The notes beneath the pieces were generated by a model. The model did not search any database. It had not been told where the DNA came from and worked only from the letters and a program-made list of their open reading frames with translations. This document shows, piece by piece, positions 1 through 5,613 of a stretch of 5,613 bases of DNA. The position numbers and the translations under genes are program-made. Origin of the DNA: a bacterium (lineage in GTDB: Bacteria > Blakebacterota > Blakebacteria > Blakebacterales > Blakebacteraceae); NCBI GenBank assembly GCA_025774205.1, contig JALGWK010000384.1:1-5613 (forward strand), in the 5' to 3' direction. Within the stretch, counting starts at the first letter, position 1. Every line of letters begins with the position of its first letter.

Positions 1-751
1 GTTGACCGGTGAAAACCGCGTATTCGTGAAGTACGGTCTCCCGCAGCTGGCCCGAACCCGTTGGCCCGGACTGAAAGCGCTCATCGACCGGGCCGGATTG
101 AAAGGGCATCAGGTGAGCGCCACGGAGGCTGTCTTTACGATTGCCCCGCGGATAAACGCCGCCGGGAGAATGGGCGATGCCCGTGACGCTTTCGACCTGC
201 TGCTCACCGATGATGCTGATGAAGGCGCCGATCTGGCAATGCGGCTGGATGTGTATAACCGGGACCGTCGGGTTGCCGATCGCGACACCCTGAAGAGTGC
301 CCGGGAGCAGGTCGACTCCTCGGGCGGACTCGAAGAGCGCCACTCACTGGTACTCTGCGCCGAAGACTGGCATCCCGGGGTGATCGGTATCGTGGCCAGC
401 CGCCTGGTTGAACTCTACCATCTCCCGACCGTACTGGTGGCCATGGATGGAGACGAAGGGCGTGGAAGCGCGAGGAGCATAGCAGGGTTCGATCTGTACA
501 ACGCGCTCCTGGAGTGTGGTGAGCACCTGGAGGAATTCGGCGGACATCCGCGTGCAGCCGGTCTCTGCGTCAGCCGCGAGAATTTTATTCACTTCACCGA
601 AGCGTTCGAGGAAATTGCCCGCAACAAGTTATCTCAGTGTGAGTTGGAGCCTTTTATAGAAGTCGATTGTGAAGTAACCAGCACCGATCTGACGACTTCC
701 TTTCTCAATGAATTGAAACTGCTCGAGCCTGACGACTTCCTTTCTCAATGA
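1..751 (+). CDS. recJ: Single-stranded-DNA-specific exonuclease RecJ, central/C-terminal part (5' end outside window; frame broken at its 3' end)
   Basis: RecJ degrades single-stranded DNA 5' to 3' in the cytoplasm and serves RecF-pathway recombination and repair. The reading frame is open from the left edge (TTG at 2 reads as an internal Leu of LTGENRVFVKYG), so the N-terminal DHH domain with most metal ligands lies outside. Visible family motifs, numbered from position 2, are PRINAAGRMGDA at residues 49-60, HPGVIGIVASR at 124-134, GSARS at 155-159 and GGHPRAAG at 180-187; the last three are typical of the DHHA1 domain. The frame then enters the OB-fold domain at LNELKLLEP, runs into a duplicated segment, adds DDFLSQ and stops at 749-751. 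Without the duplication it would continue directly into the 753-1046 fragment. Identification is firm. Whether the break is real is doubtful. Confidence 0.93.
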   Translation, partial: LTGENRVFVKYGLPQLARTRWPGLKALIDRAGLKGHQVSATEAVFTIAPRINAAGRMGDARDAFDLLLTDDADEGADLAMRLDVYNRDRRVADRDTLKSAREQVDSSGGLEERHSLVLCAEDWHPGVIGIVASRLVELYHLPTVLVAMDGDEGRGSARSIAGFDLYNALLECGEHLEEFGGHPRAAGLCVSRENFIHFTEAFEEIARNKLSQCELEPFIEVDCEVTSTDLTTSFLNELKLLEPDDFLSQ

Positions 752-769
752 ATTGAAACTGCTCGAGCC
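689..769 (+). repeat. Perfect tandem duplication, 41-base identity at period 40, inside recJ
   Basis: Bases 689-729 and 729-769 are identical, giving a period of 40 bases. The unit starts CTGACGACTTCC and ends GCTCGAGC. Identity stops on both sides (688 T against 728 C; 730 T against 770 G), so only one base of junction homology is present. Because 40 is not a multiple of three, the second copy is read in another frame and gives a stop at 749-751. Removing one copy restores a normal RecJ sequence across the junction. Confidence 0.97.
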
Positions 770-1046
770 GTTCGGCGCCGGGAACCGGCGACCGAACCTG
801 CTGCTCCGGAAGGCTCGTGTGCTCGGAACACCCGGCCGGGTCGGCGGGGATGGCGCGCATCTCAAATTCACGGTCAGCGGCGGGGAGGGAAACGGGACGG
901 AAGTCATCGGTTTCAACATGGGCGACCGGATCAATGACCTTGCGGACGGATCGATTGACCTGGTCTTCGCGTTCGAGGAGAACGAATTCAGAGGAGTCAG
1001 GAAACCCCAGATGAGATTAAAGGACCTGCGACCGGCCATTCCTTGA
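752..1046 (+). pseudogene. recJ: RecJ C-terminal OB-fold fragment, out of frame with the upstream part
   Basis: This is the remainder of the RecJ OB domain, which helps bind single-stranded DNA. It reads KLLEPFGAGNRRPN near its start, then a beta-rich stretch (LKFTVSGGEGNGTEVIGFNM), and ends in RLKDLRPAIP before TGA at 1044-1046. The LEPFGAGN motif is the normal RecJ continuation of the LNELKLLEP sequence that ends the upstream frame, which shows both pieces are one gene. The upstream piece uses the frame of position 2 and this piece the frame of position 753. The change of frame is fully explained by a 40-bp insertion. A TTG at 753 could in principle start it, but I see no ribosome binding site placed for it, so independent translation is unlikely. 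Confidence 0.85.
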
Positions 1047-1071
1047 TTCATGAGGACGTGACAGGTAGATT
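1043..1071 (+). promoter_or_regulatory. Weak candidate sigma70-type promoter for the acyl-CoA dehydrogenase operon
   Basis: TTGATT at 1043-1048 and TAGATT at 1066-1071 are separated by 17 bases. Each matches the sigma70 consensus at 4 of 6 positions, and the pair sits 42 bases before the GTG at 1113. The -35 candidate overlaps the recJ stop codon. Such matches arise by chance, and the sigma consensus of this organism is unknown. The 66-base spacer (1047-1112) has no convincing hairpin terminator, so read-through from recJ is also possible. Confidence 0.28.
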
Positions 1072-1100
1072 ACGTAAGCCCTCCCGCATTACTCCTGATT

Positions 1101-1105
1101 GAGGT
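1101..1105 (+). promoter_or_regulatory. Ribosome binding site that fixes the GTG start at 1113
   Basis: GAGGT at 1101-1105 lies 7 bases before GTG at 1113. No other start codon near the N-terminus fits the family alignment as well: the encoded MHLTDEAQMVREMVRGF matches the usual N-terminus of acyl-CoA dehydrogenases. Confidence 0.7.
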
Positions 1106-1112
1106 ACACATC

Positions 1113-2255
1113 GTGCATCTTACTGACGAAGCTCAGATGGTCCGAGAGATGGTCCGCGGGTTCGCGGAGAACGAACTGCGGCCGATCGCGGCCGAGATCG
1201 ATCGAGAGGAGAGGTTTCCGCAGGAGAGTATCGACAAGATGCGTGAGCTGGGCCTGCTCGGCATCACCATCCCGGAGGAAGAGGGTGGCAGCGGTATGGA
1301 CACCCTCTGTTACGCAGTGACCATTGAAGAGCTCGCCCGGGTGTGCGGTTCAACAGCCCTGATCGTGGCCGCTCACATCTCCCTTGCCTGCCAGCCCATC
1401 CATCTGTTCGGCAATCCCTCACAGAAAGAGAAATACCTGCCGCCGCTGGCCTCCGGCGACGTAGTCGGGTCGTACGGTCTCTCCGAAGCCGATGCCGGTT
1501 CCGATGCCGGCGCCACGAAGACTACCGCCAGGCTCGATGGAGACGAGTGGGTGGTCAACGGCGCGAAGATGTGGATCACCAACGCTCTCCAATCACGGAC
1601 CCTGATCTTCACAGCCCGTACCGGGGGGGAGGTGGAGGGAACCCGTGATATCAGCTCCTTCATCGTGGATCCCGCCGTCGACGGGGTTACTGTCAATCCG
1701 ATCATGGGGAAACTCGGGGTTCGGGGCTCCACGACCTGTGAGGTTGTCTTCGAGGATGTACGGATACCGGCCGAAGACCTGCTCGGTGAACCGGGCCTGG
1801 GATTCAAGCAGTTTCTGACCATCCTCGACGGGGGACGGATCAGCATCGGTGCCATGGCGCTCGGACTGGCCCAGGGTGCGTACGAGGAAGCTCTGCGCTT
1901 CACGCAGGAGCGTGAACAGTTCGGACGTCCCATCTCGAAGTTCCAGGCGGTCGCTTTCATGCTGGCGGAGATGGCTACCAGGATCAAAGCGGCCCGACAC
2001 CTTGTCTACGATGCCGCCGTCAGGAAGGATGCCGGTGAGAACATCATCGCCGACTCGGCGATGGCCAAGTACTACGCCAGTGAGACAGCGCAGTGGGTGT
2101 CCACCAAAGCGATCCAGCTGCATGGCGGTTACGGCTACACGAAGGAATACCCCGTCGAACGGATGTGGCGGGATGCCAAGCTTACGACTATCGGAGAGGG
2201 CACCAGCGAGATCCAGCTGCTGGTGATTTCGCGGGAGATCCTGAACGGACAATGA
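1113..2255 (+). CDS. Acyl-CoA dehydrogenase, short-chain type, intact
   Basis: This is an FAD-dependent enzyme that oxidises acyl-CoA to trans-2-enoyl-CoA, passing electrons to electron-transfer flavoprotein; it is cytoplasmic. At 380 residues it has the normal family length. The N-terminal helical domain spans about 1-115 (FAENELRPIAAEID at 18-30, IPEEEGGSG at 53-61). The first family signature, GSYGLSEADAGSD, is at 119-131, followed by the beta domain. The C-terminal helical domain carries REQFGRPISKFQ at 267-278, QLHGGYGYTKEYPVERMWRDA at 335-355 and GEGTSEIQ at 361-368, where Glu362 is at the position of the catalytic base of short-chain and butyryl-CoA dehydrogenases. It starts at GTG with a good ribosome binding site, and its stop overlaps the next start (ATGA). 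It is probably the first gene of the operon. Neighbouring thiolase and hydroxybutyryl-CoA dehydrogenase genes suggest a C4 or other short-chain substrate. Exact chain length cannot be read from the sequence. Confidence 0.95.
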   Translation: MHLTDEAQMVREMVRGFAENELRPIAAEIDREERFPQESIDKMRELGLLGITIPEEEGGSGMDTLCYAVTIEELARVCGSTALIVAAHISLACQPIHLFGNPSQKEKYLPPLASGDVVGSYGLSEADAGSDAGATKTTARLDGDEWVVNGAKMWITNALQSRTLIFTARTGGEVEGTRDISSFIVDPAVDGVTVNPIMGKLGVRGSTTCEVVFEDVRIPAEDLLGEPGLGFKQFLTILDGGRISIGAMALGLAQGAYEEALRFTQEREQFGRPISKFQAVAFMLAEMATRIKAARHLVYDAAVRKDAGENIIADSAMAKYYASETAQWVSTKAIQLHGGYGYTKEYPVERMWRDAKLTTIGEGTSEIQLLVISREILNGQ

Positions 2256-3052
2256 CGGGCATACCTTCCATGATCGACCTTGGCGGTCCGCAGCTCACCA
2301 TCGTTGATGGTGGTTCGTTCCGGCTGGACGGAGCCGCCCTCTACGGCGTCTTTCCCCGTATTTTCTGGGAAAAACTGAACCGCCCTGACGACGACAATCG
2401 GGTCCTGCTTGCGCTGGCGCCGGCAGTGGTAACCACGGCAGAGGGGGTCGTGATCATCGATCCGGGGATCGGCACCGGCTGGGGTGCCCGAACCATAGAC
2501 AGGTATGACATCCGGGGAGCGCGACCGCCCGCGGAGATCCTCTCCGGGACAGGGTTCTCTCCTTCCGATGTAGTCGCCATCATCGCGACCCATCTTCACT
2601 TCGACCACATCGCCGGGGCCGTGCAGATAACAGCCGGCTCCGAGGCGGAGAGCGGACTCTCCGACAACCTCATCGACGACCCCGACAACCTGGAGCCGGC
2701 CTTCCCCCAGGCGAAGCTCTACCTCCAGCGGGCCGAGCTGGAAGCGGCCCGGCAGCCCGATCTCAGAACCTCATCCTATGTCGCGTCATATGTGGCCCAG
2801 GTTTATGAGCGGGAAGGACGATGTGTCGTCCTGGAGGGTGACAGCCAGCCGTTCCCGGGTATCAGGATCGTAGCTACCGGCGGACACACCCCGGGACATC
2901 AGGCAATCTGGCTGGAACAGAGGCGAAGTTCCTGCTCACCGGAGACCTGGTCCCCACTACGTCGCATGTCCGCAGTGAGGTGGCGGAGGGAGTTGATCAT
3001 GAACCGGCTGTCACGAGCCTCGTCAAGGCGTCACTGCTGGCGCAGGCGGTAG
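2252..3052 (+). CDS. MBL-fold metallo-hydrolase, N-terminal two thirds, frameshifted near 2918
   Basis: This is a metallo-beta-lactamase-superfamily hydrolase of unknown substrate. From ATG at 2252 the frame shows ALAPAVVTTAEGVVIIDPG (beta strands leading to the conserved Asp), then the zinc motif THLHFDHIAG with His114, His116, Asp118 and His119, and GGHTPGHQ around 211-217, where His212 is the probable next zinc ligand. After WLE (residue 222) the frame becomes low-complexity and Arg/Ser-rich and ends at 3050-3052, unlike any MBL protein. The true continuation is in another frame from about 2920. The start overlaps the upstream stop as ATGA, indicating translational coupling; ATG at 2270 is an alternative. 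Repaired, the protein would be about 313 residues. The fold is certain. Lactonase, thioesterase or other hydrolase activity cannot be told apart. Confidence 0.88.
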   Translation: MTGIPSMIDLGGPQLTIVDGGSFRLDGAALYGVFPRIFWEKLNRPDDDNRVLLALAPAVVTTAEGVVIIDPGIGTGWGARTIDRYDIRGARPPAEILSGTGFSPSDVVAIIATHLHFDHIAGAVQITAGSEAESGLSDNLIDDPDNLEPAFPQAKLYLQRAELEAARQPDLRTSSYVASYVAQVYEREGRCVVLEGDSQPFPGIRIVATGGHTPGHQAIWLEQRRSSCSPETWSPLRRMSAVRWRRELIMNRLSRASSRRHCWRRR

Positions 3053-3192
3053 CTGCAGGCGCCTATCTGTCCTTCTATCACGCCCCCCGGATCCGCTGGG
3101 CCAGGATCAGGAGCGGCTCTGCGGGGGCTTACCAGCTTGAAGAAACCCATACCGTGGACTCGAGCAGTTCTTCGGGGAATGCGAACGACTGA
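2919..3192 (+). pseudogene. MBL-fold metallo-hydrolase, C-terminal third, in the shifted frame
   Basis: Read in the frame of position 2920, this stretch gives EAKFLLTGDLVPTTSHVR, then a helical segment and AYLSFYHAPRIRWARI, and ends at TGA 3190-3192. TGD supplies the bridging Asp ligand (codon 2944-2946), and the His of FYH (codon 3079-3081) is the probable final zinc ligand. Both are missing from the frame that starts at 2252. Relatives often have His-Asp-Pro at the last motif; here it is His-Ala-Pro. The tail is Ser/Asn-rich (DSSSSSGNAND). The fragment has no start of its own near 2919; ATG at 2980 is internal. It is best annotated as the 3' part of the same gene. Confidence 0.8.
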
Positions 3193-3202
3193 TCCGTAAC
3201 AC

Positions 3203-3222
3203 GAGAGAGGAAGAGAGAGAGG
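3203..3222 (+). promoter_or_regulatory. Purine-only ribosome binding region for the thiolase
   Basis: A 20-base stretch of only A and G lies directly before ATG at 3224 in the 31-base gap after the MBL gene. It contains GAGGA at 3207-3211, 12 bases upstream of the ATG, followed by GA repeats. It supports ATG 3224 as the start. No terminator is visible in the gap, consistent with co-transcription. Confidence 0.65.
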
Positions 3223-3223
3223 C

Positions 3224-4420
3224 ATGAGTTCAGACTTCGCTGATCCGGTCATTCTGAGCGCCGTCCGCACACCGATCGGGAGCTTTCAGAAATCACTGAA
3301 GAATCTCACGGCACCGCAACTGGGAGCGATCGTCATCCGGGAAGCCCTTCAGCGGGCTGGTGTAGACGGCAGTTCCGTTGATGAGGTGATCATGGGACAG
3401 GTCCTCCAGGGGGGTGTCGGTCAGGCACCGGCGCGACAGGCCGCCCTCGGGGCCGGACTTCCCGTCGGTGTTCCGGCCACCACGATCAACAAGGTCTGCG
3501 GTTCGGGACTCAAGTCGGTGATGCTGGTCTCGAGCATGATCAGGGCCGGTGATGGATCCGTTTTCGTCGCCGGGGGCCAGGAGAGTATGAGCAATGCGCC
3601 CTATCTGCTGAAGACCGCCCGATCAGGCCTGCGGATCGGCAATGCCGAGGTGACCGACATGATGATCCACGACGGCCTGTGGTGCGCCTTCAATGACTGT
3701 CACATGGGTGAACTGGCGGAGTATACGGCCGAGAAGGCCACCCTGACCCGGGAAGAACTCGACGCCTTCTCCGCCGACAGCCAGAGGAAAGCCGGTGAGG
3801 CTCATGCCGCCGGCAAGTTCGCGGCCGAGATCGTCCCGGTCGAGATCCCCCAGAGGAAAGGCGATCCAGTCGTCGTTACCGAGGATGAGTTCATCCGGCC
3901 TGACACGACCGCGGAATCACTCGGGCGACTGCGTCCGGCCTTCACGAAAGACGGCATCATCACCGCGGGGAACGCTTCCGGCATCAACGACGGCGCCAGC
4001 GCGCTGGTGGTGACTTCCAGGGCGGCCGCGGAGGAAGCCGGCGCATCGGTCATGGCCCGGATCACCGGTTACGCGCAGGCCGCGGTCGAGCCGAAGGACA
4101 TCTTCTTCGCTCCGATCAGCGCCATCCGCAGGATCATGGAGCAGATGGGAACCTCGATCGGCGACTTCGACCTCATCGAAGCCAACGAAGCATTTGCCGC
4201 CCAGGCGCTGGCCGACGGCAGGGAACTGGGCTGGGACTGGGAGCGGGTCAACGTCCATGGCGGTTCGATCGCGCTGGGGCATCCCATCGGAGCCAGCGGG
4301 GCCAGGGTGCTCACCACCCTCATCCACGCTTTGAAGGATCGGGGCCTGAAGACCGGTCTGGTATCGCTCTGTCTCGGCGGTGGCGGGGCAGTGGCGCTGG
4401 CAGTTGAAATCGAAGGCTGA
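3224..4420 (+). CDS. Acetyl-CoA C-acetyltransferase (thiolase II family), intact
   Basis: This enzyme condenses two acetyl-CoA to acetoacetyl-CoA, or cleaves 3-ketoacyl-CoA in the reverse direction; it is cytoplasmic and normally tetrameric. At 398 residues it is full length. The N-terminal domain opens with ILSAVRTPIGSF (10-21). The nucleophilic cysteine is Cys92 in INKVCGSGLKSV, followed by GGQESMSNAPYLL (117-129). The C-terminal domain has NEAFAAQ (321-327), HGGSIALGHPIGASGAR (345-361) with catalytic His353, and SLCLGGGGAVAL (381-392) with the second active-site cysteine, Cys383. Many relatives have Asn where the fourth Gly of CLGGGG stands, a minor variation. The loop GLWCAFNDCHMGELAE (151-166) is typical of the biosynthetic/degradative acetyl-CoA acetyltransferases. 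It lies 31 bases from the genes on both sides, in the middle of the operon. Confidence 0.96.
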   Translation: MSSDFADPVILSAVRTPIGSFQKSLKNLTAPQLGAIVIREALQRAGVDGSSVDEVIMGQVLQGGVGQAPARQAALGAGLPVGVPATTINKVCGSGLKSVMLVSSMIRAGDGSVFVAGGQESMSNAPYLLKTARSGLRIGNAEVTDMMIHDGLWCAFNDCHMGELAEYTAEKATLTREELDAFSADSQRKAGEAHAAGKFAAEIVPVEIPQRKGDPVVVTEDEFIRPDTTAESLGRLRPAFTKDGIITAGNASGINDGASALVVTSRAAAEEAGASVMARITGYAQAAVEPKDIFFAPISAIRRIMEQMGTSIGDFDLIEANEAFAAQALADGRELGWDWERVNVHGGSIALGHPIGASGARVLTTLIHALKDRGLKTGLVSLCLGGGGAVALAVEIEG

Positions 4421-4440
4421 TCACCAGGAAGCAGGAAGAA

Positions 4441-4446
4441 AGAGGA
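4441..4446 (+). promoter_or_regulatory. Ribosome binding site of the 3-hydroxybutyryl-CoA dehydrogenase gene
   Basis: AGAGGA at 4441-4446 is 5 bases before ATG 4452 and shows that translation normally starts there and not at ATG 4510. The 31-base gap after the thiolase also holds two further AGGAA motifs and no hairpin. Confidence 0.7.
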
Positions 4447-4451
4447 TCCAC

Positions 4452-4517
4452 ATGGCTATCGAGCAGTACGCGGTAATCGGCGCCGGTACCATGGGTAACG
4501 GTATCGCGCATGATTGA
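4452..4517 (+). pseudogene. 3-hydroxybutyryl-CoA dehydrogenase, 5' fragment with the NAD-binding GxGxxG motif
   Basis: From ATG 4452 the frame encodes [20 protein letters not shown], the first beta strand and glycine loop (GAGTMG) of the Rossmann fold of 3-hydroxyacyl-CoA dehydrogenases. One extra Asp codon follows and TGA at 4515-4517 ends it after 21 residues. In the family the next residues finish the helix and enter the second beta strand (about 11 residues) before the IDIS-like segment that here begins at 4513 in another frame. This is too short to be a functional protein. With the 4510-5274 fragment it is one gene from which a short piece is missing. Confidence 0.85.
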
Positions 4518-5274
4518 TATTTCGCAGGAGTACCTCGACCGTGCCCTCGCAACCATCGAGAAGAACCTCGGGCGACAGGTGAGCAAGGAGATCATTGACC
4601 AGGAAGCGGCCGACGCTGCCCTCGGACGAATCACTCCTTCACTCTCGATCGAGGATGTCGGCGGCGCGGACCTGATCATCGAAGCCATCCTCGAACGCTT
4701 CGACGTGAAGTCGGAGGCCTGGGGAGAGATCGATGCCCATGCCGGTGAGGGGGCGATCCTCGCGAGCAACACCTCGAGCATCAGCATCACGCGGCTGGCG
4801 GCCCTTACCAGCGCGCCGAACCGCTTCATCGGCATGCATTTCTTCAATCCGGTGCCGATGATGAAACTGGTCGAGGTCATCCGCGGGCACCAGACCGATG
4901 ATGAAACCACCAGGACCGTGATGGAGGAGGCCGCCTCCCTCGGCAAGACACCGGTGGAGGTCAACGATTATCCCGGTTTCGTGTCCAATCGGGTACTGAT
5001 GCCGATGATCAACGAAGCAGTTTACACCCTCATGGAGGGGGTGGCCGAGGCGGAGGCGATCGATACGGTCATGAAACTGGGCATGGCGCACCCGATGGGT
5101 CCGCTTGCCCTGGCGGATTTCATCGGTCTCGATGTCTGTCTCGACATCATGGAAGTGCTGCACAATGAACTCGGCGATCCGAAGTACCGGCCCTGTCCGT
5201 TGCTGCGGAAGATGGTGGCCGCCGGTCATCTCGGCCGGAAAACGGGAATGGGATTCTTCGACTACACCACCTAG
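4510..5274 (+). CDS. 3-hydroxybutyryl-CoA dehydrogenase, main part, lacking its N-terminus through a frameshifting deletion
   Basis: This NAD(P)-dependent enzyme interconverts acetoacetyl-CoA and 3-hydroxybutyryl-CoA, the step after the thiolase encoded just upstream. The 254-residue frame starts [20 protein letters not shown], the end of the second Rossmann strand and the following helix. It has [10 protein letters not shown] (53-62), [10 protein letters not shown] (85-94), [19 protein letters not shown] (108-126) with catalytic His110 and its partner Glu122, [17 protein letters not shown] (155-171), and a C-terminal dimerisation domain ending [13 protein letters not shown]. The missing N-terminus is largely present at 4452-4511. 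Adding the inferred 11 lost residues gives about 284 residues, the usual length. Translated alone from ATG 4510 it would lack GxGxxG, so NAD binding and activity are unlikely. That ATG is probably created or left by the deletion and has no good ribosome binding site. Confidence 0.92.
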
Positions 5275-5279
5275 GAGAG
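5273..5279 (+). promoter_or_regulatory. Ribosome binding site overlapping the dehydrogenase stop codon
   Basis: AGGAGAG at 5273-5279 begins inside the TAG stop (5272-5274) and is 4 bases from GTG 5284. It decides the GTG start and suggests coupled translation of the two genes. Confidence 0.75.
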
Positions 5280-5283
5280 CATC

Positions 5284-5613
5284 GTGGACTTTGGACTGAG
5301 TGAGGAACTGGAATTCATCCAGCAGGCCGCCCGTGACTTCGCGCAGAACGAGATCAAGCCGGGGGCCGCGCAGAACGAGATCAAGCCGGGGGCAGGAGAG
5401 CGGGATGAGAAAGCGGAGTTCCCTGCCGACATCATCAAGAGCATGGGCGAACTCGGGTTCATGGGTATCGCCATTCCGGAGGAGTACGGTGGCGCCGGAA
5501 CCGGGAATCTGGCGTACGTGCTGGCCATGGAGGAGATATCGAGAGCTGACGCCGGTGTCGGCGTGGTGATGTCTGTGAACAACAGCCTCTGTTGCGATCC
5601 GCTCTACCACTTC
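5284..5613 (+). CDS. Acyl-CoA dehydrogenase, butyryl-CoA-dehydrogenase-like, N-terminal 110 residues (runs off window)
   Basis: This is an FAD-dependent dehydrogenase of the same superfamily as the product of 1113-2255, probably converting butyryl-CoA and crotonyl-CoA. GTG 5284 gives MDFGLSEELEFIQQAARDFA, the standard N-terminus. The frame stays open to the right edge with EKAEFPADIIKSMGELGFMG, IAIPEEYGGAGTGNLAYVLA and EEISRADAGVGVVMSVNNSL, all part of the N-terminal helical domain; the catalytic Glu and the FAD signatures lie outside. Residues 20-28 (AQNEIKPGA) are repeated exactly at 29-37, a 9-residue insertion in a region that is normally a single FAxNEIxPxAxExD segment. The gene follows the hydroxybutyryl-CoA dehydrogenase by 9 bases. 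It is a different paralogue from the first dehydrogenase, not a copy: the N-termini align but differ at many positions. Confidence 0.92.
   Translation, partial: MDFGLSEELEFIQQAARDFAQNEIKPGAAQNEIKPGAGERDEKAEFPADIIKSMGELGFMGIAIPEEYGGAGTGNLAYVLAMEEISRADAGVGVVMSVNNSLCCDPLYHF
5340..5393 (+). repeat. Perfect in-frame 27-bp tandem duplication in the second acyl-CoA dehydrogenase
   Basis: Bases 5340-5366 and 5367-5393 are identical. Identity ends exactly at the unit edges (5339 T against 5366 C; 5367 C against 5394 A), so there is no extra junction homology. At 27 bases the insertion keeps the frame and repeats AQNEIKPGA. Family members carry this segment once. Confidence 0.97.

Follow-up and report, generated by a model that had tools for sequence, protein, structure and literature searches.

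The window analysed here is a stretch of 5,613 nt that makes up the entire contig C210 of a draft genome (G000; 527 contigs with 3,088,548 bases in total, completeness 85.9%, contamination 4.8%), and the question it raises is whether the lesions in four of its six genes belong to the biology of the bacterium or to the way its genome was put together. The genes all lie on the + strand, in the order recJ (3' part), a first acyl-CoA dehydrogenase, an MBL-fold hydrolase, a thiolase, hbd and the beginning of a second acyl-CoA dehydrogenase. All six were found on contig C96 of the same-genus genome G001, with the order kept and every reading frame unbroken. When the window was aligned to this sister contig by nucleotide BLAST, no match was obtained at the scoring used, so the comparison was carried out at the protein level, and lesion sizes were determined by alignment to the syntenic proteins of G001. 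A frameshift scan across the ORFs of many genomes produced too much noise, with false pairs arising from antisense ORFs and diverged paralogues, and the same-genus comparison was used instead.

Three frame-breaking lesions and one in-frame insertion were located in the window. The gene for the single-stranded-DNA exonuclease RecJ (2-1046), whose 5' end is truncated by the contig start, is broken by an exact tandem duplication at 689-769 with a period of 40 bp and 1 base of extra end match, which adds 40 nt relative to G001. Its matches to TIGR00644 fall in one frame for 217-460 and in another for 455-546, and the G001 counterpart is a single intact ORF (C96 5310-7016). The MBL-fold hydrolase gene (2252-3192), which matches the YtnP-type lactonase family, loses its frame near 2915-2921, where the lesion (about 2913-2921) amounts to a net loss of 4 nt compared with the intact counterpart (C96 8225-9172). 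The hbd gene for 3-hydroxybutyryl-CoA dehydrogenase (4452-5274, family match 4510-5274) carries a short frame-breaking deletion in the NAD-binding region, with its junction at 4508-4513 and a net loss of 32 nt compared with the intact gene of G001 (C96 10425-11276). The second acyl-CoA dehydrogenase (5284-5613), truncated by the contig end, contains an exact tandem duplication at 5340-5393 with a period of 27 bp and zero extra end match; since 27 is a multiple of three, nine residues are added and the frame is kept, and this insertion is absent from the G001 protein (C96 11286-12431). The first acyl-CoA dehydrogenase (1113-2255, syntenic with C96 7056-8228) and the acetyl-CoA acetyltransferase, or thiolase (3224-4420, 79% identity to G001), are intact. 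The original prediction, made from the letters of the window, had described two perfect duplications of 40 and 27 bp, a deletion of about 32 bp in hbd and two complete genes, all of which agreed with the comparison. It had also described a single-base-type frameshift in the MBL gene; the frameshift was found, but its size was a 4-nt loss, with the same effect on the frame as the loss of one base. The list needs one further qualification, in that the 27-bp duplication leaves its gene in frame.

The breakage of three of six neighbouring genes could be read as ordinary pseudogene formation, in which an operon and a few other genes decay in a host to which they have become dispensable. However, the window proteins beside the lesions retain about 60-88% identity to the intact G001 orthologues, and no further breaks were found in the window outside the named lesions when it was compared with these orthologues, so that the difference from ordinary pseudogenes noted earlier was upheld. 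Essential genes elsewhere in the draft are damaged alike, as described below, and the probability of simple gene decay is considered almost negligible.

Exact two-copy tandem duplications of at least 18 bp were then counted in the part of the draft that was readable and scanned (about 637 kb or about a fifth of the whole, with the window included), and in two comparison sets, G001 (213 kb) and a set of 79 loci from other genomes (1.34 Mb); 3 contigs with repeat arrays were excluded from the count. The draft contained 13 such duplications, ranging from 18 to 104 bp, 2 of them in the window, compared with 1 in G001 and none found in the 1.34 Mb of the 79 loci. Under equal rates in the draft and in the 79 loci, all 13 would come to lie in the draft with a probability of about 4e-7, or of about 4e-6 when the two duplications of the window are removed. 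Given that none of at least 18 bp occurred in the 79 other loci, the window duplications exceed chance expectation. Lesions of this kind, for which a count elsewhere in the bin had been proposed as a check, thus recur throughout the scanned fifth of the draft, and do not recur at a like rate in related assemblies (13 in 637 kb versus 1 in 213 kb versus 0 in 1.34 Mb). They interrupt other genes as well: a 22-bp duplication splits pyruvate phosphate dikinase on C10, and another of 22 bp splits a conserved protein of unknown function on C26. Below 18 bp, the rates were mostly alike across the sets and not clearly enriched in the draft, with 9-bp periods mildly raised. Inexact duplications were also detected in the draft, of 37 bp with 2 mismatches (C37), 104 bp with 3 mismatches (C200) and 22 bp with 1 mismatch each (C15 and C27). 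The single duplication of G001 is an exact 38-bp two-copy repeat at G001:C170 8281-8357, and the assembly of G001 may carry a few errors of the same kind. Separately, repeat arrays in coding sequence were observed at C170 7939-8197, C189 6354-6460, C69 1760-2069 and C175 6722-7175; these arrays look genuine and distinct from the two-copy duplications.

Short duplications and deletions spread over a genome resemble those of indel and frameshift mutator strains that lack single-strand exonucleases or mismatch repair. A live lineage of this type, perhaps linked to the broken recJ, would gather fresh lesions genome-wide in the absence of scattered stops, and recJ itself is indeed broken here. The form of the duplications is at odds with this account. 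In the clean exact duplications, the match extends past the ends by only 0-2 bases, so there is no microhomology of the kind expected of slippage, and several duplications have mismatched copies. Viable mutators retain working essential genes, and the state of these genes separates the mutator account from an assembly artefact, between which genome-wide recurrence alone does not discriminate.

Eight long essential genes (rpoB, dnaE, valS, secA, rpoC, leuS, gyrA and alaS) were therefore searched for in both the draft and related genomes. In the draft, half of them (4/8; rpoB, dnaE, valS and secA) carry damage, and each of these four is a single open frame in G001; rpoC, leuS, gyrA and alaS of the draft are in one frame each. 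The rpoB gene (C111) remains open but is 63 nt short, so that 21 residues are absent after SSQLSQFMDQTNPL. The missing residues are identical in G001 and G002 and correspond to the rifampicin region beside the active centre of Escherichia coli RpoB. No second rpoB was found in the draft. The outer codons at the deletion junction are alike, and short microhomology is possible behind deletions such as this one. An automated survey could misread this in-frame loss as natural variation in the rifampicin region. In dnaE (C208), matches lie in two frames and about eleven residues are lost between FLNPER and YERRSEIIRYV, a gap where bacterial DnaE carries the PDxDxDF motif and, in it, two catalytic aspartates; the dnaE of the draft has lost both this catalytic region and its frame. 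The valS gene (C340) is divided between two frames and lacks about 30 profile positions, and in secA (C23) the frame changes and a short stretch is missing after SDRIAG; no replacement match for valS or secA was found elsewhere in the draft. A second dnaE-like gene lies at C174 3959-7201, with an open frame of 1450 residues; the G+C content of this contig is 66%, compared with about 61% for the draft. No second full-length dnaE-like gene was found in three relatives, in all of which the main-type gene is intact, and C174 may be a contaminant contig or its gene may encode a DnaE2-type polymerase. As an observation on another assembly, rpoC of the same-family genome G003 (C318) gave two overlapping matches, one of them with an internal TAG.

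If the draft were taken literally, its cell would be incapable of transcription, of secretion and of charging valine tRNA, and most probably of replication too. In this respect the draft differs from mutator strains: RpoB has lost 21 invariant residues, dnaE its catalytic motif, and valS and secA their frames. Since a living mutator lineage must keep its essential genes working, it is excluded as the carrier of these lesions, and we regard the mutator account as highly improbable. As these essential genes are damaged in the draft and intact in G001, an artefact is favoured over a mutator, which bears out the preference for mis-joined metagenome overlaps in the original prediction. A real population with duplications and deletions genome-wide, even in essential genes, and with intact copies held in other cells or in unsampled replicons, is likewise most improbable.

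Damage that strikes genes irrespective of their function and recurs genome-wide would also be expected if damaged or chimeric templates had been assembled faithfully, for example whole-genome-amplification chimeras at low coverage. Amplification chimeras, however, usually join distant or inverted segments, and the adjacent copies seen in the draft are atypical of them. The structure of the contigs points instead to joining after assembly. At about 841-857 of C215, the only run of Ns in the readable draft was found, with four Ns flanked on each side by the same six bases (CGCATC-NNNN-CGCATC); this gap is a visible scaffold join with doubled flanks. Moreover, contig sizes fall steadily from C1 to C220 with the exception of longer contigs out of order, which suggests that the latter were merged or scaffolded and are still numbered by the rank of a seed. 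Every clean duplication falls in one of the out-of-order contigs; the in-order contigs contain 0 in 78 kb of readable sequence, where about 1.5-2 would be expected, a difference that is not significant. In two contigs, C37 and C43, the size of the segment that precedes the duplication is that expected for the contig rank (permutation P about 0.05). The more general proposal that all lesion-bearing contigs fit this rank model was rejected, as it holds for only these two. Considering the repeated flanks on C215 together with the contig-rank pattern, faithfully assembled chimeric templates are judged very unlikely.

Taken together, the lesions are very probably joining errors between contigs or scaffolds of a metagenome assembly and no biological feature, a reading which rests on the comparison of assembled sequences. 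Contigs may have broken at stretches common to co-occurring relatives. Where the ends of neighbouring contigs were identical over a few tens of bases, concatenation with the overlap left uncollapsed would produce a two-copy tandem duplication. Copies with mismatches would come from contig ends of slightly different strains or from error-prone ends, and the inexact duplications fit two separately assembled contig ends. We infer that deletions from a few bases up to some tens would result where a short stretch between contigs was dropped or an overlap was over-trimmed; the exact joining step and the software responsible are likewise inferred. One finding stands against such joining: if it were purely distance-based, it should also yield duplications shorter than 18 bp, yet no clear enrichment of these was seen.

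Local assembly errors have been described in metagenome assemblies, with the suspicion that they are most prominent in IDBA-UD, and scaffold joins made by IDBA-UD and CLC were found to leave overlapping flanks doubled around Ns (Chen et al. 2020, PMC7111523). The lesions of the draft resemble those errors in the short doubled flanks at joins and in the spread of wrong protein-coding genes into databases, and the four-N gap of C215 with its repeated flanks is of the same form. They differ in that the reported errors involve Ns between flanks and sequence lacking read support, whereas the joins of the draft are mostly N-free, with either a doubled overlap or a loss of sequence. A literature search found no published description of exactly this lesion signature.

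The significance of these results lies in data quality and not in biology, and the lesions of the window say nothing on RecJ, the MBL protein or beta-oxidation in the host. A draft that serves as species representative holds doubled or missing stretches in rpoB, dnaE, valS, secA, recJ and others, and automated annotation will report such lesions as pseudogenes, as truncated proteins or as unusual variants. Assemblies of this kind can be flagged cheaply, and with no reference, by how densely they carry exact two-copy tandem duplications of about 18-100 bp.
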